Shown one piece after another: positions 30,884-45,401 of a stretch of DNA of 64,000 nt (positions within the stretch are counted from its first letter, which is position 1; the number at the start of each line of letters is the position of its first letter). The stretch covers positions 62,001 through 126,000 of the forward strand of contig NZ_JACNMO010000011.1 of assembly GCF_020622345.1 (NCBI RefSeq), in the 5' to 3' direction. The DNA comes from Roseobacter weihaiensis (GTDB lineage Bacteria > Pseudomonadota > Alphaproteobacteria > Rhodobacterales > Rhodobacteraceae). The translations under genes were made by a program, and so were the position numbers. The notes below the pieces were generated by a model that was given only the letters and a program-made list of their open reading frames with translations, made no database searches and was not told where the DNA came from.

Positions 30884-31591
30884 CTACTGCGTCTTTTTGC
30901 GCTTTGGGGACGACATCTTCATCGATGGCTCCTCAAGCCGTGCCGTGGGCCCTGTCCAGGCGTAGGCCAGCAAACAAGGATCCCGGTCGCCGGTGGTGAT
31001 CCGGTGTTCATCGCCGGACCGATTGAGGATCAGCGACCCCGGCGCATAAACAGCGGCATTGTTTTCCGACCACGCCCCGGAGACCGAGATATAGCTTTCC
31101 TCTATTTCCTGATGACTGTGCTGCGGGTACGTCGTGTTCGGGGCAAAGAGCACAAAACCGAGAATGAGCTGGTCGGACTGCACCGGCCCGCGCGGCCCCA
31201 TGACTTCGCAATAGGCGTATTTCGCGACCAGCGACTTGGGCAGCTTGTCGTAGCCATATTCCCATGTCAGCTCGTCCTTGATCTCTCTGAGCGCCCGGGC
31301 CATGCCCTGCATTGCCCCTCGTTCGCCGAGGTCAAGCGCACGCGGCAGATGCGCCGTGACCGGTTTTGTCTCGCACCCACGTGACAGGAACTCCGGGTTC
31401 TTTGCCATGGTCGCGGACAGCCTGTCGCGCACGCGTTTGCGGTGGCTTCTGATCGCAGAGCTGCCGCCCGCTGAGCCATAGCGGTACAGCGCGTCGAACT
31501 CCCGCATCAGGTAAATCCAGTTCGGGTTATCCGCCAACCGCGCGCCCGCCGGCGGCTGGGTGTATGCAGATGAAATGGATGCGTCTTCCAT
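30884..31591 (-). CDS. dddL: DMSP lyase, DddL type (cupin)
   Basis: Cupin enzyme that splits dimethylsulfoniopropionate into acrylate and dimethyl sulfide. Chosen start ATG at 31591 (AAGGA six bases upstream), 235 residues; longer in-frame extensions match nothing. Cupin motif 1 is YPQHSHQEIEESYISVSG, giving His158, His160 and Glu164/165 as metal ligands. Motif 2 is GSLILNRSGDEHRI with His196. The segment KYAYCEVMGPRGPVQSDQLILGFVLFAP is shared with DddL proteins of Rhodobacter and Sulfitobacter. No acrylate-utilisation or regulator gene is adjacent. It is divergent from the hydroxylase/exporter operon across a 475-base gap. Confidence 0.85.
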   Translation of the reverse strand: MEDASISSAYTQPPAGARLADNPNWIYLMREFDALYRYGSAGGSSAIRSHRKRVRDRLSATMAKNPEFLSRGCETKPVTAHLPRALDLGERGAMQGMARALREIKDELTWEYGYDKLPKSLVAKYAYCEVMGPRGPVQSDQLILGFVLFAPNTTYPQHSHQEIEESYISVSGAWSENNAAVYAPGSLILNRSGDEHRITTGDRDPCLLAYAWTGPTARLEEPSMKMSSPKRKKTQ

Positions 31592-31877
31592 ATCTTGTCC
31601 TTCGCGTCTTGTTGACGGGCGCTGCGCGGGGCCCGCAACCCCATCTGACAGAGCGCGAAACATCTGTGCCCACCGCCCGTCATGTTGCCTGAGGCCACGT
31701 GATATGCAATGCCATTTCTCGGCTGGACCGAACAAATTTCGGGCTGCGGCTGACCTGTAATTCAATCTGCAACAAACGCGGGCGTTCACCGGATATCACC
31801 CCAAGACAGACCCATACCGAGCACGAATTGGCTGAGCCGTTCATCCGCCCTGACATACCAAAGGTTCTGTCCTGAAA

Positions 31878-32066: not shown

Positions 32067-32639
32067 ATGAAGTACTTCAAACGCCTTAAATCAGAGATGG
32101 ACCCGACCCCCTTTCTCGAGGAGATCGCACAGGTCGCCACCGCATGGGACGACGCCACCGGACGGCAGAACAAAATCCCCGTTCAGCGCGAAGCGAAGGC
32201 CATCCCGCTTCGGGGTCTGCGCAAATCCGCCATCGGCAACCGGAAAAGACGCGATGTCCACGAAAGCCGCTGGACGACGGGATCAAAGAACTACCCCGTC
32301 GCGCGGGCGTTTCTGGAAAGCTTTGCGCAAGAACAGGACAGTATTCTGGGGCGCGCAAAAATCGTCTGTCTGCCGGCCGGTAAACGGGTCTATCCGCACA
32401 TTGATCGTGGTCTCTATTACCGCGTGCGCAACCGCTACCACTTTGTGCTGAAGTCGACGCATGGGTCCTGGATGAAAGCGGGTGACGAGGAAGTGCGCAT
32501 GCAGCAGGGCGAGCTCTGGTGGTTTGACAACGACCAGATGCACGAGGCCAACAACGATGGCGACCAAGACCGCATTCACGTGATCTTTGACATGCTGCCT
32601 GCCCATCTGGCCGAAGAAGTCTTTGGGGCTGCGGCCTAA
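32067..32639 (+). CDS. Aspartyl/asparaginyl beta-hydroxylase family protein
   Basis: Fe(II)/2-oxoglutarate oxygenase of 190 residues. Putative iron ligands His111 and Asp113 (YPHIDRG) and His159 (DQMHEANN), and the 2-oxoglutarate Arg169 (DRIHVIFD) are visible, with the WWFDND segment typical of the AspH/LpxO group. It probably hydroxylates a peptide aspartyl residue or an acyl chain; the substrate is unknown. Good ribosome site AAAGGAG, nine bases before the ATG. First gene of an operon with a hydrolase and an ABC exporter. Confidence 0.85.
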   Translation: MKYFKRLKSEMDPTPFLEEIAQVATAWDDATGRQNKIPVQREAKAIPLRGLRKSAIGNRKRRDVHESRWTTGSKNYPVARAFLESFAQEQDSILGRAKIVCLPAGKRVYPHIDRGLYYRVRNRYHFVLKSTHGSWMKAGDEEVRMQQGELWWFDNDQMHEANNDGDQDRIHVIFDMLPAHLAEEVFGAAA

Positions 32640-32665
32640 ATCCACTCAAAAACGGGAGCGTCACC

Positions 32666-33580
32666 ATGTGCGTCCTTTCATCCTCCGAGGCATCAACCAA
32701 TGTCACTTATGACGTGCGCTATCGACCCGGCGCAGGCCTGACCGGATTGGCCGCGTGGCTGGCGCTCCCCCCCTACATCGACCCCACCTTGCCGCCGGTT
32801 GTGGCCGTTCACGGCATAAGGCGCGGGGCAGAGCTTCAGGCCCGTCTTTTCGCAAAACGGGCGGCGGCATCGGGTCGTCCCGTGATCGCGCCACTTTTTG
32901 ATGCAGAACGCTGGGGCGGTTACCAGCAGGCAGCCTTGCGCGGTCGTGCCGATCTGGCGTTGATTGATCTGATGGCATCGCTTGCGCGGGAGGGCCTGAT
33001 AGGGGCCAACACGCTCGACCTCTTTGGCTTTTCAGGTGGCGCGCAGTTCGTTCACCGCTTTGCCATGTTGCATCCGACGCGGGTCGCAAAGCTCAGCATT
33101 GCATCGCCGGGGTGGTACACTTTTCCTGACAATGCGCCCTATCCCTATGGCCTGTCTCCCCCCGCAAATCGAGACGCCAACTGGGCCCGACGGCTGCCCG
33201 CCAACATCGGACAGTTCCTTGCCCTGCCGATGAATGTCTGCATCGGCGAGCAGGACTGCGTGGCGGATAAGAACACCCGAAGCGGTGATGCAATTGACGC
33301 CCAACAGGGTCTGCATCGTCACGCGCGCGCGCACCGGTGGAGCGCTGCAATCCGCGCTGCTGCGACGGCGCTGGGGATCAGACCCCGCGTTGCGCTCCAC
33401 GTCCTGAAGAACTGTGGCCATGATTTCGAGGCCTGTGTTCACAAGGGCGAGCTTGACAAGATCGTCATTCCCCGCCCCCAGCGCACCACCTGCCGCGGCA
33501 CCTGTAATCTGCAACAACAGCAAGCCTGCCGCCTGGCAAAGAGCTTTGAGTTGCCCCATGCCCTGGAGACCCCACAATGA
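32666..33580 (+). CDS. Alpha/beta hydrolase (Ser nucleophile)
   Basis: Cytoplasmic alpha/beta hydrolase of 304 residues with the nucleophile elbow GFSGGAQ (Ser123), a candidate acid Asp in GEQDCV (about residue 197) and a base His252 in NCGHDFE. No signal peptide. The oxyanion region is VAVHGIRRG. The C-terminus has a basic, Gln- and Cys-rich stretch (TTCRGTCNLQQQQACR). GGGAG lies before the ATG; its stop overlaps the next ATG by four bases. It could hydrolyse an ester or thioester linked to the hydroxylase product or to the exported molecule. Confidence 0.82.
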   Translation: MCVLSSSEASTNVTYDVRYRPGAGLTGLAAWLALPPYIDPTLPPVVAVHGIRRGAELQARLFAKRAAASGRPVIAPLFDAERWGGYQQAALRGRADLALIDLMASLAREGLIGANTLDLFGFSGGAQFVHRFAMLHPTRVAKLSIASPGWYTFPDNAPYPYGLSPPANRDANWARRLPANIGQFLALPMNVCIGEQDCVADKNTRSGDAIDAQQGLHRHARAHRWSAAIRAAATALGIRPRVALHVLKNCGHDFEACVHKGELDKIVIPRPQRTTCRGTCNLQQQQACRLAKSFELPHALETPQ

Positions 33581-35220
33581 GCACGCTTCCAAAAATCATG
33601 AGCGAAGGTCGCGGTCGACACATTTCTCTGTTGATAGGGCTTGCACTGGGTCAGGCAATTGCAACAGGCATTGCCGCCTTTGCGACCCGCGATGTTTTTG
33701 CAGCCTTCCGCGATACGTCTGACATTCTGCCGCTGCGCGCCCTCGGTCTGGTGGCCTCGGCAGGTCTGTTGATCGGGGCGCTGCGGTTCTACGAACGGGT
33801 GGTGGCTGAAAAGGTGGGGCAGCACTACGCGGCCTCCCTGCGGATCAGGCTCTTCAAGCACATGACGCAGGTGTCGGCACGCGATATCGCGTCCCGCAGA
33901 AACGGGTCGCTGGCTTTGCGGTTTGTGGGCGATCTGTCGGCAGTGCGCGGCTGGGTCAGCCTTGGGCTGGCGCGCCTGATTTCGGCGCTGATTGTCCTGC
34001 CCGTCGCCACCGCCGTGCTGTTTTACATGAACCCGGTGATCGGCCTTGCTGCAAGCCTGCCGATTGCGGTCGGGTTGCTGGCCATGGCCCTGCTCGGGCC
34101 ACGCCTTGGCCCGGTCCACAAGCGCCTGAGGTCCCGGCGCGCGCGGCTGGCAGCCGACATGAGCGAGCGCATTCCCCACGCACCGGAACTGCGTCTTCTG
34201 GGACGCATTCAGATCGAAACCCGCCGGATCAGAGCCAGGACCGACAAACTGGTTGACGCCGCGCTTGAGCGTGCGCGGGGGGCGGCCATCTTACGCGCGA
34301 TACCGGATGCGGTTTCCGGCATTGCTGCGGCAAGTGTGTTTTGGGTTGCCTTGCAAGGCGGGTTGCCGGCGGCAGAGGCGGCGGGGTGCCTTGCTGCGGT
34401 TGGCCTGATGATCCAACCGATGCGGGACCTTGCCGGCGTCTGGGACCGGCATCGGGCCTGGCAGAATGCGAGACGCAAGTGTGCGGAACTGCTCATGATG
34501 CCCAAGCTGGAGAGGGCGCGCATGGCCGAGCGCCCCCTACCGAAAACACCGCCTGCACTGACCTTTGACAACGTTGCCGCAGGGGCCCTTGCCGACATCA
34601 ACGCAACCGCCCTGCCGGGTCGCAAGATCGGCATCATCGGCGGCAACGGCGCAGGCAAATCCACTCTGCTCAGCCTGGCTGCCGGGCTTGAGTTCCCTCA
34701 GAGCGGATCCGTGCTGCTGGGGGACATCCCCCCCACGGCGCTGACCGCACGCGAGCGACGGGAGATGATCGCGCTGATCGGTACGCGCTCGCCCATTCTC
34801 AAAGGCTCTTTGCGGCGCGCGTTGACAATGGGCGTGCAGCACCGGCCTGATGATGATGACATTCTGCAGGAGGCAAACACCTTTGGGCTGGGCAAGGTGA
34901 TTGACCGCTTGGGCGGGCTGGACGGGACAGTCTCAGAAGGCGGGCGCAATCTGTCGGCTGGTGAAATCCGCCGCATCCTGCTGACCCGTGCTGCCCTGTC
35001 CAAGCCGCAGGTCATGTTGCTGGACGAGCCCGACGATGCCTTGGACCGGAAAGGGCCAGAGCTTGTCCGCACCCTGATCGAACGAAGCGATGCCACCACC
35101 CTTCTCATCACGCACAACGTGGACATCGCCATGATGATGGACGAGCTGTGGCTGGTGGAAGACGGTCGCATCGTGGAAACCGGCACACCCGATCATCTGT
35201 TGGTCGGGGGAGATTGCTGA
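33577..35220 (+). CDS. ABC half-transporter with altered NBD motifs
   Basis: Fused membrane and nucleotide-binding exporter of 547 residues. About five to six helices span residues 15-290; the NBD has Walker A GGNGAGKST (about 355-362), signature NLSAGEIRR in place of LSGGQ, Walker B VMLLDEPDDALD and H-loop THN (His513). The position where the Q-loop Gln is expected is occupied by GTRSP. One gene only, so a homodimer is expected. It completes the hydroxylase/hydrolase operon; the changed motifs suggest a distinct exporter subgroup. The substrate is unknown. Confidence 0.85.
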   Translation: MSTLPKIMSEGRGRHISLLIGLALGQAIATGIAAFATRDVFAAFRDTSDILPLRALGLVASAGLLIGALRFYERVVAEKVGQHYAASLRIRLFKHMTQVSARDIASRRNGSLALRFVGDLSAVRGWVSLGLARLISALIVLPVATAVLFYMNPVIGLAASLPIAVGLLAMALLGPRLGPVHKRLRSRRARLAADMSERIPHAPELRLLGRIQIETRRIRARTDKLVDAALERARGAAILRAIPDAVSGIAAASVFWVALQGGLPAAEAAGCLAAVGLMIQPMRDLAGVWDRHRAWQNARRKCAELLMMPKLERARMAERPLPKTPPALTFDNVAAGALADINATALPGRKIGIIGGNGAGKSTLLSLAAGLEFPQSGSVLLGDIPPTALTARERREMIALIGTRSPILKGSLRRALTMGVQHRPDDDDILQEANTFGLGKVIDRLGGLDGTVSEGGRNLSAGEIRRILLTRAALSKPQVMLLDEPDDALDRKGPELVRTLIERSDATTLLITHNVDIAMMMDELWLVEDGRIVETGTPDHLLVGGDC

Positions 35221-35225
35221 AAATG

Positions 35226-35257
35226 AAAAGACCTTGGGCATCGCTCCAAGGTCTTTT
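35226..35257. terminator. Strong Rho-independent terminator
   Basis: Perfect 12-base-pair stem AAAAGACCTTGG / CCAAGGTCTTTT with loop GCATCGCT, ending in TTTT on the plus strand and AAAA-derived T4 on the minus strand. It closes the exporter operon and serves the convergent response-regulator gene too. Confidence 0.9.
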
Positions 35258-35291
35258 GAGGTCCTAAATGGCCCAATGGCCCGTGGCAGGG

Positions 35292-35963
35292 TCAGCCAAA
35301 GCGGTAACCTGCCCCACGCACGGTCTTGATGAGCCCGCTGTAGGGCCCAAGCTTTTTGCGCAGACGACCAATATAGACATCGACAACGTTGGTCATCGGA
35401 TCTTCGTGCGTGCCCCAGACAGAATTCAGAATGCGCTCGCGGCTCAGTGCCTTGCGCTCGCTCGTCATCAGCAGGGAAATCAATTCGCGCTCCTTGGCGG
35501 AGAGGTCAACCACCACATCGTCTACTGTCAGCACCATCGCACTGTAGTCATAGATCAACCCCTCATGCCGAAGCTTGCCATCATCGGCATCATCCGCATA
35601 GCTGGTGTTGCGCCGGTGCAGCGCGTGGAGGCGTGCAATAAGTTCATCGAAGTCAAACGGTTTGGGGAGATAATCATCCGCCCCCAGCCGCAGGCCGGCA
35701 ACCCGTTCGTCAGCGCTGTCCAGGGCTGTCAGCATCAGCACCGGCGTGGTGTTGGAGCGGGCGCGCATCTTCTGGCAGACCCGCTGACCGGTGATGCCCG
35801 GCAGCATTAGATCGAGGATCACGATATCAAAATCCCGGTCCTGCATGATCTCCAGCCCCGTTTCGCCATCGGTTGCATGCTCAACAACCCAGCCTTCGGC
35901 TTTCAGCCCACGCCGGATAAAATCTGCAACCCGTGTTTCATCTTCGATCAAAAGAATGTTCAT
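35292..35963 (-). CDS. OmpR-family response regulator
   Basis: DNA-binding response regulator of 223 residues. The receiver domain has the acidic pair ED at residues 7-8, the phosphoacceptor Asp in VILDLMLPG (about residue 51), Thr in LTALD and Lys in LPKPFDF. The winged-helix effector (about 125-222) ends in RLRKKLG...IKTVRGAGYRF. Encoded 120 bases after the histidine kinase on the same strand. No target gene is evident. Confidence 0.93.
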   Translation of the reverse strand: MNILLIEDETRVADFIRRGLKAEGWVVEHATDGETGLEIMQDRDFDIVILDLMLPGITGQRVCQKMRARSNTTPVLMLTALDSADERVAGLRLGADDYLPKPFDFDELIARLHALHRRNTSYADDADDGKLRHEGLIYDYSAMVLTVDDVVVDLSAKERELISLLMTSERKALSRERILNSVWGTHEDPMTNVVDVYIGRLRKKLGPYSGLIKTVRGAGYRFG

Positions 35964-36083
35964 GATCCTTGCGCCTCTTCGCTAGTCATTGGGCGCAATC
36001 TTCGCACCCTTCAGAAAGGCAAACGGTTCGCGGCGCAACTTATTCCCAAATTCTGACGAGAACCGGATCCTTTGGGAAGAAAT

Positions 36084-37652
36084 TCAGGATTGCGCCACCG
36101 TCCGCAAGGGTGGCGCGGCAGGCAGCTCGAGAACACACGCTAGTCCGCCACCCTCTCGGTCTTTAAGCAGCGCATTTCCGCCGTGAGCGCGTGCAATAGA
36201 CCGCACCACCGGCAGCCCGAGCCCGGCGCCATCCTCATATTGGTCCGCAGCGTTCGATCCGCGGAAGAACCGCTCGAACGCGCGCTCCTTCTCCGCGTCC
36301 GGCACGCCGGGGCCGTTGTCCTCGACACTGATCCGGTAGCCGGTCGGGGATCGCAGCAGCCGCACGCTGATCTCTGGCCCGCCGTACCGCCGCGCGTTTT
36401 GAATCATTGCCGCGATGCATTGGCGGATTCTTGAGACATCCAGTGAAACCACGGCGTCTTCCAAATCGCTTTTTAACGGAATGTCAGGACCGAAAACCGC
36501 GATTGTGTCTTGCAACAACTGCCTCAGATCAACCCGTTCAAGCCGCAGGCGCGTTTGCCCGGCCTCTTCGCGTGAGATAAACAGCAGATCGTTGACCAAG
36601 AGGTTTGTATGCTTTGCGGTCTCTCGCGTGCGGCGCAAAGCCTCGCGGTATTCCTCCGTTGTTTTATCCGCGCCGCGCAAAGCAACATCGCTTTCACCCT
36701 GGATGATGGTGAGCGGTGTCCGCAACTCGTGGCTGACGTCGGCCAGCATCTGGCGGCGTGCCTCCTCGGCCAACTGGTTCTTTTTAAGCAGGTTCTCCAG
36801 ATCAGCGGTCCGCGCCTGAACCGCCTCTTCGAGCGCGGTATTCTGCGTCGTCAGCGAGTTGGTCCGCGCCTCCACCATCGCGGCCATCGTGTCCATAACG
36901 CCCGCAATCTGTGATATCTCGCTGCGGCCCTGCATCGCCATCGGCTTCTCGAACCGGCCGTTGGCCAAGGCTGCCACACCCGTCATCAGCTCCTGCAGGG
37001 GCCGGGCAATCTGACGGGCGTAGATCCACATGGCCCCCCCCGTAGCGCTCAGCGCCAGAAGCACCAGAAAAACAGAGATCTGATTTGCAAGCCGCAGATG
37101 CTGGGCCGCAGCCACACGGGTTTCTTCCACTTCTTCCAGCTCTTCTGCAAGGGCCGCTTCGATCATCGAATGAAAATCGCGGTCAATATCGTCATCCAGC
37201 ATGACCGAAAGCCCTGTCCAGTTCCGGCCGAACTGCTCAACTGCAGTGTCTTTGCGGACTAATTCAAAGCGCACGATCAGGTCGCCTATCTTGCTCTCGA
37301 TCTGAGAGAGCAATTCAAGCTCTTCGATCTCTTCATCGCCAACCAGATCGATCTCCTGCCCGATCAGTTTACGGATGGAGCGGATATTTTCCTGAATCAG
37401 CCGGATCAATTCAGCTTCTCCCCGGCCCTCGTCCCGATCCCCGATCAGCATCGCATCGCCGTACTGCTTGAAAAGCTGGTAGGTGTTGCCGCTCAACTGC
37501 AGATGCGCCTCGTAGGACTTATGCGCCAGGTTGATACGTTCGTTGAAATACGCCGCCCGCTCGGTAGTCCAATACGCCAGCGTCGTACCTCCGAGGGCCA
37601 CGATCAACATAATCGCTGCGAGCCCGCGTAGCAGATTTGCAATCGTCATCAT
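36084..37652 (-). CDS. Sensor histidine kinase with HAMP domain
   Basis: Membrane kinase of 522 residues. Two helices (near residues 10-28 and 200-220) enclose a periplasmic helical sensor domain of about 170 residues. HAMP (about 215-270), a coiled coil, then HisKA with His in ADVSHELRTPL and HATPase (N box MIQNARRYGG, G1 VEDNGPGVPD, G2 GAGLGLPVV). It phosphorylates the OmpR-type regulator encoded next. The signal is unknown. Confidence 0.92.
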   Translation of the reverse strand: MMTIANLLRGLAAIMLIVALGGTTLAYWTTERAAYFNERINLAHKSYEAHLQLSGNTYQLFKQYGDAMLIGDRDEGRGEAELIRLIQENIRSIRKLIGQEIDLVGDEEIEELELLSQIESKIGDLIVRFELVRKDTAVEQFGRNWTGLSVMLDDDIDRDFHSMIEAALAEELEEVEETRVAAAQHLRLANQISVFLVLLALSATGGAMWIYARQIARPLQELMTGVAALANGRFEKPMAMQGRSEISQIAGVMDTMAAMVEARTNSLTTQNTALEEAVQARTADLENLLKKNQLAEEARRQMLADVSHELRTPLTIIQGESDVALRGADKTTEEYREALRRTRETAKHTNLLVNDLLFISREEAGQTRLRLERVDLRQLLQDTIAVFGPDIPLKSDLEDAVVSLDVSRIRQCIAAMIQNARRYGGPEISVRLLRSPTGYRISVEDNGPGVPDAEKERAFERFFRGSNAADQYEDGAGLGLPVVRSIARAHGGNALLKDREGGGLACVLELPAAPPLRTVAQS

Positions 37653-37767
37653 TTAACCTCCATCGTGGCGATCCCGGTAAACGTCGTTGCAGCACGACCA
37701 ACGTCTGACCACGCTACAAAACCGCTGAAACCTTGGCCATGTGTTTCTGCGGAAAGCTGCACGTCAG

Positions 37768-37795
37768 AAGGGGCCGCACAAATGTACGGCCCCTT
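37768..37795. terminator. Terminator-like hairpin after P-loop protein gene
   Basis: Nine-base-pair stem AAGGGGCCG / CGGCCCCTT with a ten-base loop, just past the stop of the gene ending at 37817 on the minus strand. T run is weak (TTCT). Confidence 0.55.
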
Positions 37796-37816
37796 CCCCT
37801 GCTCTGCCTGTTCTAG

Positions 37817-38920
37817 CTACGCTGCCGTCAACGAACCGATCAAAACGGGTTCTGGTTCCATCCTCCGCTGGGGAATACGGAGGATGGAACGCACCACCGC
37901 CATAACCGCCGCGGGGGTACAAAGATCCTCGCGCGACAGTTGCGGGATGCCGGTAGCAATCCTTGCTTCGGCCATGGCCAGAGGGGATTGCGTGAGCTTG
38001 CCTGACATCGCGAAAGGCTTGAGCCCGTGATCTGCCAGGACTTTGGTGCCGCCCACCGCACCGAGGGCATCCGGCGTGGCAAAGAGGATGGCGTCCAACC
38101 GATCCCGGATACTTGATCCGGCGAGGATTTCGCGGGTTTCCTGCTGAAAGACACCATCGGCAATCTCGACAACCGCAATGTCTGCCCCATTCGCCGCTGC
38201 GGTTCCGACAAGGGTCTCAAAACCCTTTTCGATCCGCTCCATCGGCATCCGGTAGGTGGTCGGCATACCCGCATCGGTGAAATCCATCGCGCAGACGCCG
38301 GCATCCTGAAAAGCGTTGTAGTCGCCGAAAGCACCGGTGCCCGTTGCCTTGACACCCGCGACGCTGAAGCCCGCGCGGGAGAGACCGTGCGCAAGGCTGA
38401 CGGCCGCAGTCGTTTTTCCTGCATTCATGGAGGCGCCGAACACGCCGATGACGGTCACATGATCCGGGATCGGCGTCTGCGGCAACCCGTAACGGGCAAT
38501 GTTTATGACCTCGCCTGCGTGATCTGTCAAAAGCCCGATGGGGCGCAGCTTTGTCGGCTCTGCCATCCGGGCATGCGCATTTTCCATCGTGCCGACGACG
38601 CCGCCGCCCGCCAGCAGATCAGCACCGTCCGCCGTGATACGGGCAGCGCCTTCAAACTGATCCGGCGCATAGCGGTCCCCGACGCAGAGCACGACTTTGT
38701 CGCCAAGATAGCTGGTCGCGGCACGCCCGCTGGCAAGTTGTATCTTCTGGTGCTGGTTGATCTCGGTAATCTCGCACAGCACCAGATCACCGGCCACGGC
38801 GAGGGCGACGGTTGGGTCCAGACCAGCCACATCATCATGATTGACGCGGCGCGTTGTAAAAGCCCATTTGGCATTGAGATGCAGCATGGTCAGGTCAAAA
38901 TCGTGGGTGTGAATGGTCAT
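37817..38920 (-). CDS. P-loop NTPase-like protein of unknown function
   Basis: Protein of 367 residues with an N-terminal beta-rich domain (residues 1-145) and a C-terminal P-loop domain with Walker A GASMNAGKTTAA (about residue 160) and DADITDGVF-like acidic segments (VVEIADGVFQQETREIL). It resembles DUF1611/MobB-like GTPase folds, but I do not recognise the exact family. The C-terminus has a small domain (LTQSPLAMAEARIATGIPQL). It lies between the two-component system and the anti-sigma gene, on the same strand as both. Function not assigned. Confidence 0.55.
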   Translation of the reverse strand: MTIHTHDFDLTMLHLNAKWAFTTRRVNHDDVAGLDPTVALAVAGDLVLCEITEINQHQKIQLASGRAATSYLGDKVVLCVGDRYAPDQFEGAARITADGADLLAGGGVVGTMENAHARMAEPTKLRPIGLLTDHAGEVINIARYGLPQTPIPDHVTVIGVFGASMNAGKTTAAVSLAHGLSRAGFSVAGVKATGTGAFGDYNAFQDAGVCAMDFTDAGMPTTYRMPMERIEKGFETLVGTAAANGADIAVVEIADGVFQQETREILAGSSIRDRLDAILFATPDALGAVGGTKVLADHGLKPFAMSGKLTQSPLAMAEARIATGIPQLSREDLCTPAAVMAVVRSILRIPQRRMEPEPVLIGSLTAA

Positions 38921-39065
38921 GTCAGCCGTCCTTTTGAGTTTGTGTGTCTGAGGATCAACCTAGGAAGAATGCGTGTCAGCTTCCTGTTGGCATGATGAAT
39001 GCTCATGTAAGAATTCATGAACAGGAAATGAACACTTAACTAATTGATATAAAACAATATTAATA

Positions 39066-39088
39066 CCCGCCGCATGGTATGCGGCGGG
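39066..39088. terminator. Hairpin after anti-sigma gene
   Basis: Perfect ten-base-pair stem CCCGCCGCAT / ATGCGGCGGG with loop GGT, 27 bases past the stop of the anti-sigma gene. On the minus strand an AT-rich stretch follows. A likely Rho-independent terminator. Confidence 0.75.
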
Positions 39089-39114
39089 TTGGTTCCAGTA
39101 CGGTCGATTTTGGG

Positions 39115-39885
39115 TTATCGAAGCGCCGCCAGAGCCGCTGCTTCTGCCGCCGGGTCTAGCGGATCTCCGGCGCTGCTGGCGCTTAGGTAGGCATCAAGTG
39201 CTTCCAATGATGAGGCCGGCGCGTATCCGGTATCGGTCGCCCCTGCCGCCGCAATTGCAAGTTGCACATCCCACTGCCCTGTCCGTTGGCAGGCCACGGA
39301 AACGACTGTAACGCCATCAGCGCGGTCGAGTTCGAATTCACGGCACAATGTCTGCTCGCCATCAAAGAATGTCGCAATCGGAGCGATCCGCTCACCGGTG
39401 TCAAGCAACACGTCCTCGCCCGAGGGGACCGCGTCCAGTGCAGCGATGATCCGGGCATCGGTCAGGGTTGCAATTTCGATACCGACAGAAGTGCTATCGG
39501 TGGTCGAGAACATCAGCCCGGTACCCAGTCCGACGGCCAGTGCCAGACTTGCCGCCACAGGCAGCTTCCATGTCGAGGACGCAGCGGGTTGTGGTGCCTG
39601 CCGCGTTGGAAAGGAGACCACGGTGTCATCCCCCGCAGCGGTTGACTGCTTCTGAGCCGCCTCCAGCGCGCGGACATGCTGAACGAGATGATCCGGCACG
39701 GGCTGCTGCAACATGGGCTCGAAGGCTTGCTGCGCAATCGTCCGGGTGTCGATGAACAGCGCCAGCCGTTCCGACAGGTCTGCGTCGTTCGCAAGCGCCT
39801 GATCCAGTTCTGACGCGCGTTCTTCTGCCAGCTCGCCGTCGGCGTAGGCCATCAATTCCTGATCTGTAAATTCGGTCTTTTGCAT
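39115..39885 (-). CDS. Membrane anti-sigma factor
   Basis: Zinc-finger-less anti-sigma protein of 256 residues from the ATG at 39885 (GGAG nine bases upstream); an upstream ATG at 39900 overlaps the sigma gene. The N-terminal ELMAYADGELAEERASELDQAL helix pair resembles the ECF anti-sigma domain. One membrane helix (KLPVAASLALAVGLGTGLMF, about 105-125) and a periplasmic beta-rich domain follow. It should hold the ECF sigma factor at the membrane. The periplasmic domain may respond to envelope damage. Confidence 0.85.
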   Translation of the reverse strand: MQKTEFTDQELMAYADGELAEERASELDQALANDADLSERLALFIDTRTIAQQAFEPMLQQPVPDHLVQHVRALEAAQKQSTAAGDDTVVSFPTRQAPQPAASSTWKLPVAASLALAVGLGTGLMFSTTDSTSVGIEIATLTDARIIAALDAVPSGEDVLLDTGERIAPIATFFDGEQTLCREFELDRADGVTVVSVACQRTGQWDVQLAIAAAGATDTGYAPASSLEALDAYLSASSAGDPLDPAAEAAALAALR

Positions 39886-39886
39886 C

Positions 39887-40417
39887 TCAGTTGTCTCCAT
39901 GACTGCTGGGAGAACGCGTGATCTCGCGGTTTATTCCCAACTTTTCTGAAATTGCCAATCTCGCCCGTGCAAGGCGGCTCATGATTGTCCCGACCGGGGT
40001 ATCCAAAACGACGGCAGCCTCTTTATAGCTCATCTCCTCGACACAGATCAGCATGATGACATCACGCTGGTTTTCAGGCAGCGTTTCGATGGCGCGCTGT
40101 GCCGCCCCCAGCATCAGTGCGTCCTCGGTGACTTTTGTCCCATCCACTGTGCTGACATCGGGGGCATCATCTATGTCGATTTGTGTCCCGCGTGTCTTGT
40201 TGCGCCGCACCATGTCGATCCATGCATTGCGCAGGATACGGAAAAGCCAGGCCTCAAGCCGGGAGCTGGGATCGAACTGTTCGCGCGACGCAAACGCGCG
40301 TTCGACGGTGATCTGGACCAAATCGTCCGCCGTGTCGTAAGATCGGCACAGCGAAATCGCAAAGCGCCTTAAGTTCGGCAGAAAAGCGATGATGTCATCT
40401 GCAAACCTGTCTGACAT
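39887..40417 (-). CDS. ECF-type RNA polymerase sigma factor
   Basis: Extracytoplasmic-function sigma factor of 176 residues. Region 2 reads RRFAISLCRSYDTADDLVQITVERAFASREQFDPSSRLEAWLFRILRNAWIDMVRR. Region 4 reads LPENQRDVIMLICVEEMSYKEAAVVLDTPVGTIMSRLARARLAI. Both promoter-binding regions are complete. It is encoded just before its anti-sigma factor and divergent from an exported subtilase. The target promoters are unknown; the subtilase promoter region is the nearest candidate. Confidence 0.93.
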   Translation of the reverse strand: MSDRFADDIIAFLPNLRRFAISLCRSYDTADDLVQITVERAFASREQFDPSSRLEAWLFRILRNAWIDMVRRNKTRGTQIDIDDAPDVSTVDGTKVTEDALMLGAAQRAIETLPENQRDVIMLICVEEMSYKEAAVVLDTPVGTIMSRLARARLAISEKLGINREITRSPSSHGDN

Positions 40418-40477
40418 CTTCGTTCATTTCTTTCGTTGTGGTAAATGGAATAAAGTTCGGTGTGACGCGTCATCATT

Positions 40478-40500
40478 AAGGCACCTTTGAAGCAAGGTGC
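40478..40500 (+). promoter_or_regulatory. Shared leader motif and small hairpin, copy 2
   Basis: AAGGCACCTTTGAA with GGTGC four bases later; GCACCTT and AAGGTGC can form a seven-base-pair hairpin. The 14-mer is identical to the copy at 32024-32037. It lies 60 bases upstream of the subtilase GTG and inside the sigma/subtilase divergent gap. A regulator site or an RNA element is possible. Confidence 0.5.
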
Positions 40501-40560
40501 AACGATATCTGGCCGTTAATGGCCTGAATTTGCAAATTGTAGCCTAGCTGGAGAATCGTC

Positions 40561-42066
40561 GTGCAGAAGCTTCTTTCTCATATTCTACTGACCTTTACGC
40601 TGGTGGTGGTGGTGCCGCTGACCTTGCCGCACCACCTCACGTCGACAGTTGCCTGGGCCGATGATGACGACGGGGACGATGGGGGTGGCGATGACGGGGG
40701 CGGGGATGACGGCGGGGATGACGGTGGCGACGACGACCGTGACGACGACGACCGTGATGATGATGACCGTGACGATGATGACGACCAGCGCGATGGGCGC
40801 AGCACGGGCGAGGGCAACAGCGGAAACCGTGGCACCGGGAGCAACCCGCTGGGTGTCAACCGGATCGGTGACTTTTTCGATCGGTTGTTCGGAGCGCCGC
40901 AGCCTGCCCCCAGACCGACACAACAGGCCGCCCCACAGCCCTTGCCAGAGAGGGCCGCAGCCGAAATCGTTGTCCTTGATCTGTCGCAGGAGGACCTTAC
41001 AACGCTGGCGCTGCGGGGCTACGAAGTAATTCAGACAGCCCAGATCGGAGCCATCGGCGAGACCGTGCGCAGATTGCGGGTTCCGGCCGACATATCGCTC
41101 GCTGCGGCCTTGGAGGAGATCCGCCAGCTTGGTTCCGGTCAATCCTCGGATTTCAACCACTATTACCGGACCAACCAGAGCATTACCGCACCCTGCGAGG
41201 GGCTGCACTGTGCCTCCTTCGATCTGGTGAATTGGACCCCCTCGACCGCAACGGGGAGCAGTTGCGGGACCCCCAGCGCGCGCATTGGCCTGATCGATAC
41301 CGGGATCAATCCCGACCATGAAGCCTTTGTCGGCAGCAAGCTTTCGGTTCTGGATTTCGATCATGGGGAGCGGACGGGCTCCGGCGCGCAACATGGGACC
41401 GCGGTTGCAGCCCTGCTGATCGGGTCGCGCGCGGGGCGGGCGCATGGTCTGCTGCCCGAGGCGCAGCTGGTGGCGATTGACGCATTTCACCGCGCGGGCA
41501 GAGACGAACGCAGCGATGTTTTCGATCTGGTGCAGGCAATGGATCGACTGGCAAATGCGGGTGTCAACGTCATCAACATGAGCCTGGCCGGCCCCCACAA
41601 CACGCTGCTGGAGCGCATGGTCACACGGTTGAGCGAGCAACAGGTTCTGATCGTATCGGCGGCAGGAAATGGCGGCCCGCGTGCAGAACCGGTGTTTCCC
41701 GGTGCTTATGACCCTGTTCTCACCGTCACAGCGGTTGATGCATCCGGCAAGATTTATCGTCGTGCCGGTCGCGGGCCCCATGTTGATCTGGCTGCCCCCG
41801 GTGTAGAGGTCTGGACAGCCGCATCCATCCGCGGCGCCCGCACCAAAACGGGCACGTCTTTTGCGGCACCTTTTGCCACCGCAGCCGCCGCCATTCTGAT
41901 GTCGGGCGAGCAGGAGATGACAATCAAGGAGGTGAAAGCACTCCTGCGCGAGACCGCGCTCGACCTCGGAGAAGAAGGCCCCGACGAGGTTTATGGCGCA
42001 GGCCTTGTGCAATTTGCGCCCCTTTGCGCCGGAACACCCTCCGCAGAACCGGCCCTGTTGGAATAA
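40561..42066 (+). CDS. Exported S8 family serine protease with acidic Asp/Gly repeat
   Basis: Subtilisin-like protease of 501 residues, GTG start with GGAG seven bases upstream. Signal peptide ends near VAWA at residue 33. Residues 34-78 are an almost pure Asp/Gly/Arg repeat (DDDD, GGGDD, DDDRDDDD), then a linker and a segment resembling a prodomain. The catalytic Asp246 (GLIDTGIN), His278 (QHGTAVA), oxyanion Asn370 (AAGN) and Ser433 (GTSFAAPF) are all present. The acidic region may bind calcium or keep the zymogen inactive. Divergent from an ECF sigma/anti-sigma pair, so it may be part of that response. Confidence 0.88.
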   Translation: MQKLLSHILLTFTLVVVVPLTLPHHLTSTVAWADDDDGDDGGGDDGGGDDGGDDGGDDDRDDDDRDDDDRDDDDDQRDGRSTGEGNSGNRGTGSNPLGVNRIGDFFDRLFGAPQPAPRPTQQAAPQPLPERAAAEIVVLDLSQEDLTTLALRGYEVIQTAQIGAIGETVRRLRVPADISLAAALEEIRQLGSGQSSDFNHYYRTNQSITAPCEGLHCASFDLVNWTPSTATGSSCGTPSARIGLIDTGINPDHEAFVGSKLSVLDFDHGERTGSGAQHGTAVAALLIGSRAGRAHGLLPEAQLVAIDAFHRAGRDERSDVFDLVQAMDRLANAGVNVINMSLAGPHNTLLERMVTRLSEQQVLIVSAAGNGGPRAEPVFPGAYDPVLTVTAVDASGKIYRRAGRGPHVDLAAPGVEVWTAASIRGARTKTGTSFAAPFATAAAAILMSGEQEMTIKEVKALLRETALDLGEEGPDEVYGAGLVQFAPLCAGTPSAEPALLE

Positions 42067-44914: not shown

Positions 44915-45077
44915 TGCGGGCGAGTAAAATCCCCTACCACAGGACAAATCATTGCTATTCCACGCTTTTACGCCAGTGAACATAAGGCGAGGGCAACTTT
45001 TGCCATGCGCGTGGGAATGCGCAGAGCGCAACCGATAACGCTTGACCGCAAGGCCAGAATCGCCAACAGATAATGGC

Positions 45078-45264
45078 GATGGTTTCTGGAAGGCGACAGT
45101 CTTTCAGGATGAAAAGGGAATACGGTGAGGACGCGCCGCGAGGCACCAAATCCGTAACTGCCCCCGCAACTGTAGGCGGCGAGCGAACCCGATGATCACC
45201 ACTGCACGTCTCGTGCGGGAAGGATCGGGGGAGCGGTGACCCGCAAGTCAGGAGACCTGCCATC
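45078..45264 (+). ncRNA. Cobalamin (B12) riboswitch
   Basis: Contains the conserved elements of the adenosylcobalamin riboswitch in order: GAAAAGGGAA TACGGTG, AAATCCGTAACTGCCCCCGC AACTGTAG, GAACCCGATGATCACCACTG and the B12 box AAGTCAGGAGACCTGCC. P1 can pair 45078-45082 with 45260-45264. It precedes the DUF1636/ABC corrinoid-uptake operon; a small hairpin at about 45298-45315 near the operon start may be part of the expression platform. It should shut the operon off when cobalamin is plentiful. Confidence 0.95.
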
Positions 45265-45401
45265 ACCAGCACCTTTTGAGGGCTGGCTGCAACTCAACCC
45301 GGGCGGGGTGCCCGGTCAGGAGATCATGATGAACAGGCCCGCCGGTCGAAACACCGTGACACATCTGCTGATCGCTCACCGTCAAATTCGCGGAGGGCGA
45401 C

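Follow-up and report, generated by a model that had tools for sequence, protein, structure and literature searches.

A hydroxylase, a hydrolase and an ABC half-exporter of Roseobacter weihaiensis belong to a wider conserved gene system marked by a P-loop protein

Do three adjacent genes for a hydroxylase, an alpha/beta hydrolase and an ABC half-exporter in Roseobacter weihaiensis make up a self-contained module, or are they part of something larger? These genes lie at 32067-35220 of the window, that is, the whole stretch of 64,000 nt analyzed here (NZ_JACNMO010000011.1, positions 62,001-126,000; all coordinates are relative to the window), and a preliminary description of this DNA had proposed that they represent an undescribed three-gene module. 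We find that the system is wider than the trio: it spans 32067-42066 and includes the window genes at 35292-42066. Its parts, with the short names used below, are:

32067..32639, + strand: AspH, Fe/2-oxoglutarate oxygenase of the Asp/Asn beta-hydroxylase family (PF05118 and invariant residues)
32666..33580, + strand: HYD, alpha/beta hydrolase with LpqC and the poly(aspartic acid) hydrolase PahZ1 as relatives (phmmer matches)
33577..35220, + strand: ABC, single CydC/D-like ABC half-exporter (PF00664 and PF00005)
35292..35963, - strand: RR, response regulator of the OmpR/PhoB type (PF00072, PF00486)
36084..37652, - strand: HK, sensor histidine kinase (HAMP, HisKA, HATPase_c)
37817..38920, - strand: P, the hallmark of the system, a P-loop protein of the SIMIBI class whose N-terminal beta domain matched no solved fold
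39115..39900, - strand: ASF, probable anti-sigma factor (NCBIfam antisigma, 25.3 bits against a cut-off of 100, together with gene position)
39887..40417, - strand: ECF, extracytoplasmic function sigma factor (PF04542, PF08281)
40561..42066, + strand: S8, secreted subtilase with an Asp-rich N-terminal tract (PF00082, 135.7 bits)
40660..40794, + strand: codons of the Asp-rich tract of S8, residues 34-78 (from the sequence)

The evidence for a wider system comes, in the first place, from co-occurrence. We searched 295 genomes of the family, about one per genus, with HYD, AspH, ABC and P. A match to P at E<=0.001 was found in 22 of these genomes; two of the matches are weak, at 28-30% identity, and one gene is interrupted by an internal stop. 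Every genome that carries AspH at >=68% identity (8/295), HYD at E<=1e-30 (11/295) or ABC at E<=1e-60 (12/295, a lower bound because four first-look candidates were scored per genome) also carries P, and Fisher tests of this association, which ignore the relatedness of the genomes, gave p values of 2e-10 for AspH, 2e-14 for HYD and 9e-16 for ABC. At the looser cut-off of E<=0.001, HYD matched in 38 and AspH in 10 of the 295 genomes, and two genomes lacking P hold weaker AspH matches, with 41% and 37% identity. When 18 stretches from 15 genomes of the family were compared, a shared cluster containing P was apparent. The genes are not always linked: AspH lies apart from P in two genomes (G063, G125), and S8-ECF-ASF lie apart from P in three (G221, G132, G253). 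Nevertheless, the unlinked copies still fall in genomes that possess P.

A wider set of loci was obtained by scanning the P alignment over bacterial genomes and taking the best 80 loci of at least 541 relatives, which, with the window, gives 81 loci. The resulting counts, from profile searches on stop-to-stop open reading frames with score cut-offs that we set ourselves, favor close relatives of P; several of the loci come from metagenome bins, and for a few the organism label is doubtful. For the first clustering of these loci, genes were taken from a simple in-house caller of open reading frames, and the later profiles were built from those calls, the EF-hand profile from seven sequences. 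By profile, P was found in 81 loci, ABC in 75, HK in 48, HYD in 47, RR in 44, ECF in 27, the anti-sigma factor in 26, S8 in 25, AspH in 22, a small EF-hand protein in 12 and a lipoprotein family, c13, in 8. Although HK and RR belong to large families, nearly all of the counted copies (47/48 and 43/44, respectively) lie within 6 kb of P. The next most common family in the first clustering, a generic transport ATPase, was present in 14 loci, and the one after that in 7.

The trio of AspH, HYD and ABC is found together in 21 of the 81 loci, and AspH is accompanied by HYD in 21 of the 22 loci that contain it. A search for this gene order in other genomes had been proposed as a check on the module idea, which was to be given up if the three were never found together; as the genes do recur together, that objection falls away. 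The trio is not, however, a free-standing module: all 21 loci were selected by P. Twelve of them have the order AspH-HYD-P-ABC, six (including the window) have AspH-HYD-ABC, P being encoded on the opposite strand, two have P-AspH-HYD-ABC and one has HYD-P-ABC-AspH. Thus, AspH, HYD and ABC adjoin one another with no P between them in 8 of the 21 (the window, L090, L091, L092, L123, L126, L096 and L116), and in L096 and L116, P is located just upstream. The near-constant pair of the system is P and ABC, which are usually translationally coupled: among 64 same-strand neighbor pairs, 48 have an overlap of exactly 4 nt. The gene sets seen most often beside P are ABC-HK-RR-EF and HYD-ABC-S8 (11 loci each), ABC-HK-RR and HYD-ABC (9 each) and AspH-HYD-ABC-HK-RR-S8 (8). 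Near P in L099, L105, L106, L110, L112, L114 and L124 there are genes for an apparently DUF4956-like membrane protein and a VTC-like protein. On a Sulfitobacter conjugative plasmid (L223), AspH-HYD-P-ABC lie near PepSY genes and a gene for a TIGR02466 protein, which shows that the system can reside on a mobile element.

Within the window, the families assigned to the trio in the preliminary description hold up, as do the three same-strand open reading frames (190, 304 and 547 aa) and the 4-nt overlap of HYD and ABC. AspH matches Pfam Asp_Arg_Hydrox (PF05118) with 62 bits, against a cut-off of 22.6, and the residues singled out earlier, H111, D113, H159 and R169, are invariant in two alignments, one of nine hydroxylases (9/9) and one with 28 rows; H111xD113...H159 matches the iron-binding HxD...H motif and R169 the 2-oxoglutarate-binding arginine, the residue pattern expected of PF05118. 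The lipid A hydroxylase LpxO was considered for AspH and rejected: the score against the LpxO equivalog is far below the cut-off (19.4 vs 500 bits), and for this reason the lipid A hydroxylation raised previously is not favored. HYD has only a sub-threshold Pfam match, to Abhydrolase_1 (23.1 vs 25.8 bits), and S123 and H252, also named earlier, are among the positions that are at least 93% conserved in 43 aligned hydrolases. Compared with solved alpha/beta hydrolases, HYD resembles PahZ1 (9o7u, E = 7.7e-12; 6ve6, E = 2.9e-11) but is closer to LpqC (3d0k, E = 7.7e-17), and it differs from PahZ1 in that its gene shares an operon with ABC and, as a rule, P. In ABC, the ABC_membrane (PF00664) and ABC_tran (PF00005) domains are fused in one protein. 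Its best full-length NCBIfam matches are CydC and CydD of the CydDC thiol/heme exporter, but both are below the cut-offs (CydC, 186 vs 329 bits; CydD, 175 vs 435 bits), and there is a single half-transporter gene, flanked by HYD and RR, with no second one adjoining.

What, then, is P? Its fold and Walker A region resemble those of dethiobiotin synthetase, CTP synthetase and CobB/CbiA-type enzymes, P-loop enzymes in which ATP activates a carboxylate or carbamate, but the similarity is mostly confined to the P-loop region, and P has an extra N-terminal domain and a different gene context. P is below the cut-off of the BioD equivalog (15.2 vs 83.3 bits). It is likewise below the cut-off of DUF1611 (PF07755, 14.9 vs 25 bits), the family of 2g0t and 2obn and of DgcN of D-glutamate catabolism, and its N-terminal domain, searched alone against solved structures, had no fold match. 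Among the conserved positions of P there is a single His, and Cys is absent. More distant relatives of P adjoin genes of the arginine-biosynthesis type, beta-aspartyl-peptidases or M20 hydrolases, so that their neighborhoods are mostly those of amino-acid metabolism and not of metal handling. Together, the fold class of P and the gene contexts of its relatives suggest that P is an enzyme, and if it is, the earlier statement that no biosynthetic gene adjoins the trio is wrong. In two loci a P relative stands directly beside a beta-aspartyl-peptidase gene (L231, 7327-9315; L232, 3043-5018), possibly a separate two-gene system. On a Priestia megaterium plasmid (L224, 4781-13469), a P relative with 25% identity is found in a phosphonate-type cluster that also contains two ATP-grasp genes, a gene of the PEP mutase family, ornithine carbamoyltransferase and transporters; this may be an undescribed natural-product cluster.

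The system also has secreted partners rich in aspartate. We scored Asp residues per 24 residues and called a tract strong when it had at least 11. The tract of the window S8 reaches 18 Asp in 24 residues and follows immediately on what is probably a signal-peptidase site, AWA, as judged by eye. A strong tract near the signal peptide is present in 22 of the 25 linked S8 proteins; in L129 and L133 the tract is Gly-Asp-rich and less dense, whereas the protein of L168, cut by a contig end, has Ala-Glu repeats. A second S8 match, of 129 bits, is found in L131. When all proteins predicted in the 81 loci (1228) were scored, the Asp score was bimodal (0-8 or >=12), and 22 of the 29 proteins in the upper group are S8. 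In 12 loci, all without S8, the gene immediately upstream of P encodes the small secreted EF-hand protein; scored in this way, 11 of the 12 proteins have an Asp-rich tail, and that of L113 is shorter. S8 and the EF-hand gene never share a locus among the 81. A Paracoccus albus plasmid does carry both, and in G253 a gene for an EF-hand/poly-Asp protein lies beside ECF-S8 genes unlinked to P.

As a genome-level control, a tract-free S8 query was run against 20 genomes with P and 20 without it. At E<1e-100, S8 was found in 6/20 vs 0/20 genomes, and with the next two matches in 8/20 vs 0/20; depending on the cut-off, the Fisher p value for these 40 genomes, with relatedness again ignored, is 0.02 to 0.003. 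The six best S8 proteins are cleanly separated, whereas the other two (G083, 1.1e-52; G194, 4.0e-49) are only narrowly above the weaker homologues, the strongest of which reaches 2.4e-46. All eight have 10-24 Asp in 24 residues, as against 3-5 in eight weaker homologues. The S8 profile whose score parts these two groups was trained with tract-bearing proteins, so its boundary is not independent of the tract. Another family of Asp-rich proteins is represented in L210, L211, L212, L217 and L218: these are small, secreted and Asp-rich at the C-terminus, often paired and in several cases PepSY-looking, and they occur in genomes with and without P alike.

Two recurring DNA motifs suggest shared control of these genes. 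In the window, the sites are:

36022..36046, - strand: ECF-type promoter-like site upstream of RR (pattern match)
39017..39032, - strand: direct repeat TTCAT-N6-TTCAT before P, probably a response-regulator box (sole match in the window)
39913..39937, - strand: ECF-type promoter-like site before the anti-sigma gene (pattern match)
40447..40471, + strand: ECF-type promoter-like site upstream of S8 (ends in CGTC, relaxed pattern only)

The ECF-type site, GGAAT[AT]-N14-16-CGTT, has 109 matches in 1.45 Mb of loci, compared with totals of 10 and 21 for two control patterns of equal make-up. A system gene comes next, within 400 bp, at 73 of the 109 (RR 13, S8 12, HYD 12, ECF 11, anti-sigma factor 9, c13 6, P 5 and AspH 5), and the remaining sites lie before other genes (17) or before no gene (19); because the pattern was refined after a looser version had been seen in the same loci, this enrichment is descriptive. 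The window contains exactly three GGAATA-N14-18-CGTY sites, those before RR, the anti-sigma gene and S8, a number reached in 1 of 100 shuffles, and no ECF-type site before AspH-HYD-ABC or before P. ECF is a short protein with Sigma70 regions 2 and 4 and is paired with an anti-sigma factor whose assignment is sub-threshold. The lipoprotein-like family c13 adjoins the system in L130, L136, L139, L153, L159, L161 and L163, and an ECF-type site precedes six of these seven genes; the one member scanned had no Pfam match.

The TTCAT repeat has a form that fits a regulator of the OmpR/PhoB type; 12 of 100 shuffles of the window also contained one. In the wider set, TTCAT-N5-7-TTCAT is found upstream of 24/80 P genes, compared with 2/48 HK genes and 2/838 non-system genes, and 23 of the 24 loci with the repeat before P hold both HK and RR, the exception (L167) being a short contig. 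Judging by the ECF-type sites and the TTCAT repeat, a single circuit seems to take in the sigma factor, the two-component pair, S8, P and, in many loci, the HYD operon.

How might these components work together? The reading that we prefer, and hold tentatively, is that of an envelope-linked conserved system acting on an aspartate-type substrate, in which P forms amide bonds, AspH hydroxylates, HYD hydrolyzes and ABC exports. Gene content, co-occurrence, the promoter-like motifs, the fold class of P and, in some loci, the Asp-rich secreted partners are the observed basis of this proposal; each enzymatic and export step is suggested by protein family and gene context. Under joint control by the sigma factor and the two-component pair, the nucleotide site of P would activate a carboxylate in the way known from dethiobiotin synthetase-type enzymes, and an amide or isopeptide bond would then be made on an aspartate- or glutamate-type substrate. 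AspH, in those lineages that have it, would beta-hydroxylate this substrate, HYD would be the matching amide or isopeptide hydrolase, and the half-exporter would move a small product across the inner membrane, and this product would act together with the secreted proteins bearing a terminal Asp-rich tract, S8 or the EF-hand protein. One observation weighs against a link between P and Asp-rich proteins: genomes with P (13/20) and those without it (10/20) do not differ clearly in how often they contain eight Asp codons in a row. Of four regions with such runs in genomes lacking P, two encode proteins that are PepSY-like by our reading of the sequences and two encode unrelated proteins; PepSY-like proteins, by the same reading, are also found in three regions from genomes with P.

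A bolder version, in which the terminal Asp tracts are themselves the substrate, beta-hydroxylated by AspH where present, decorated through isopeptide bonds by P and cleared of these by HYD, is distinctly improbable; if true, it would make the tails on a surface protease or EF-hand protein a ribosomally templated counterpart of cyanophycin. The likeness to cyanophycin and poly-Asp polymers consists in the idea of a poly-Asp backbone and in the beta-aspartyl-peptidase genes beside two P relatives, and the difference is that the poly-Asp of this system is ribosomally encoded.

A plain small-molecule pathway is possible, if somewhat unlikely: P, AspH and HYD would tailor a metallophore, a signal or another secondary metabolite, ABC would export it, and the Asp-rich proteins would be merely co-regulated, the aspartate theme being partly coincidence. 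A lone ABC half-exporter beside enzymes is a usual layout of metabolite export, and the P relative in the phosphonate-type cluster of the Priestia plasmid, the patchy spread of P and the plasmid locations, one of them conjugative, are in line with such a pathway. It leaves unexplained, however, the confinement of Asp-rich S8 proteins, among the 40 genomes compared, to those with P and the Asp-tailed EF-hand genes directly upstream of P. Those proteins would find a place in calcium or metal homeostasis, with poly-Asp and EF-hand proteins as surface cation buffers of high capacity, a calcium-dependent S8, a two-component pair that senses cations and P as a metallochaperone-like SIMIBI ATPase instead of a ligase. 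We consider this unlikely, given the single His and lack of Cys among the conserved positions of P and the amino-acid metabolism contexts of its distant relatives; moreover, AspH and HYD would have no explanation.

The combination of a subtilase and a single ABC exporter is shared with the maturation genes of quinohemoprotein amine dehydrogenase (qhp). A further reading is a cluster for a ribosomally synthesized and post-translationally modified peptide (RiPP), in which AspH and the protease would process an unseen precursor and ABC would export the result. The weaker matches of S8 include the RiPP-type protease QhpE (74.6 vs 165 bits) and PatA (75 bits), both below cut-off, and an Asp-modifying oxygenase pair is reported for a graspetide cluster (PMC13097080). 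Unlike QhpE, however, S8 is apparently secreted, with a signal peptide of its own, and Asp-tracted; no RiPP core enzyme was recognized among 14 window proteins scanned with Pfam, and no family of short open reading frames near the core genes occurs in more than 4 of the 81 loci, although a fast-evolving precursor could escape such a search. A RiPP cluster thus seems very unlikely. Chance proximity of unrelated operons, for which the variable gene order and the separated copies of AspH and S8-ECF-ASF could be cited, is hardly credible, being contradicted by the co-occurrence with P, low Fisher p values included, even of unlinked genes.

All the component families are known, but no description of this gene system was found in a search of the open-access literature, in agreement with the preliminary description of the trio. 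As the comparisons made here also set its proteins apart from LpxO, CydDC, DUF1611 (by cut-off), BioD and QhpE, it appears new as a gene system with a putative function, and the novelty would drop if a plain metabolite-export pathway were true. Three unremarkable annotations thereby become a defined, apparently co-regulated system of about 10 genes with a diagnostic protein, P. The system ties an AspH-type hydroxylase and an enzyme resembling poly(aspartic acid) hydrolase to secreted proteins with long Asp-rich tails, and if this link holds, what these enzymes do in nature and what the Asp tails are for become testable questions.

Five window proteins were also scanned with the PADLOC defence models: ABC matches mad3 and AriA, S8 matches subtilase and IetS, and AspH, HYD and P had no match. 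On the other side of AspH, the window encodes a dimethylsulfoniopropionate (DMSP) lyase (30884-31789, - strand; PF16867, 164.8 bits), a homologue of which stands beside the system in none of the 80 loci, so that this neighborhood is not conserved. Downstream of the system there is a cobalamin riboswitch (45063-45278, + strand, 135.3 bits).

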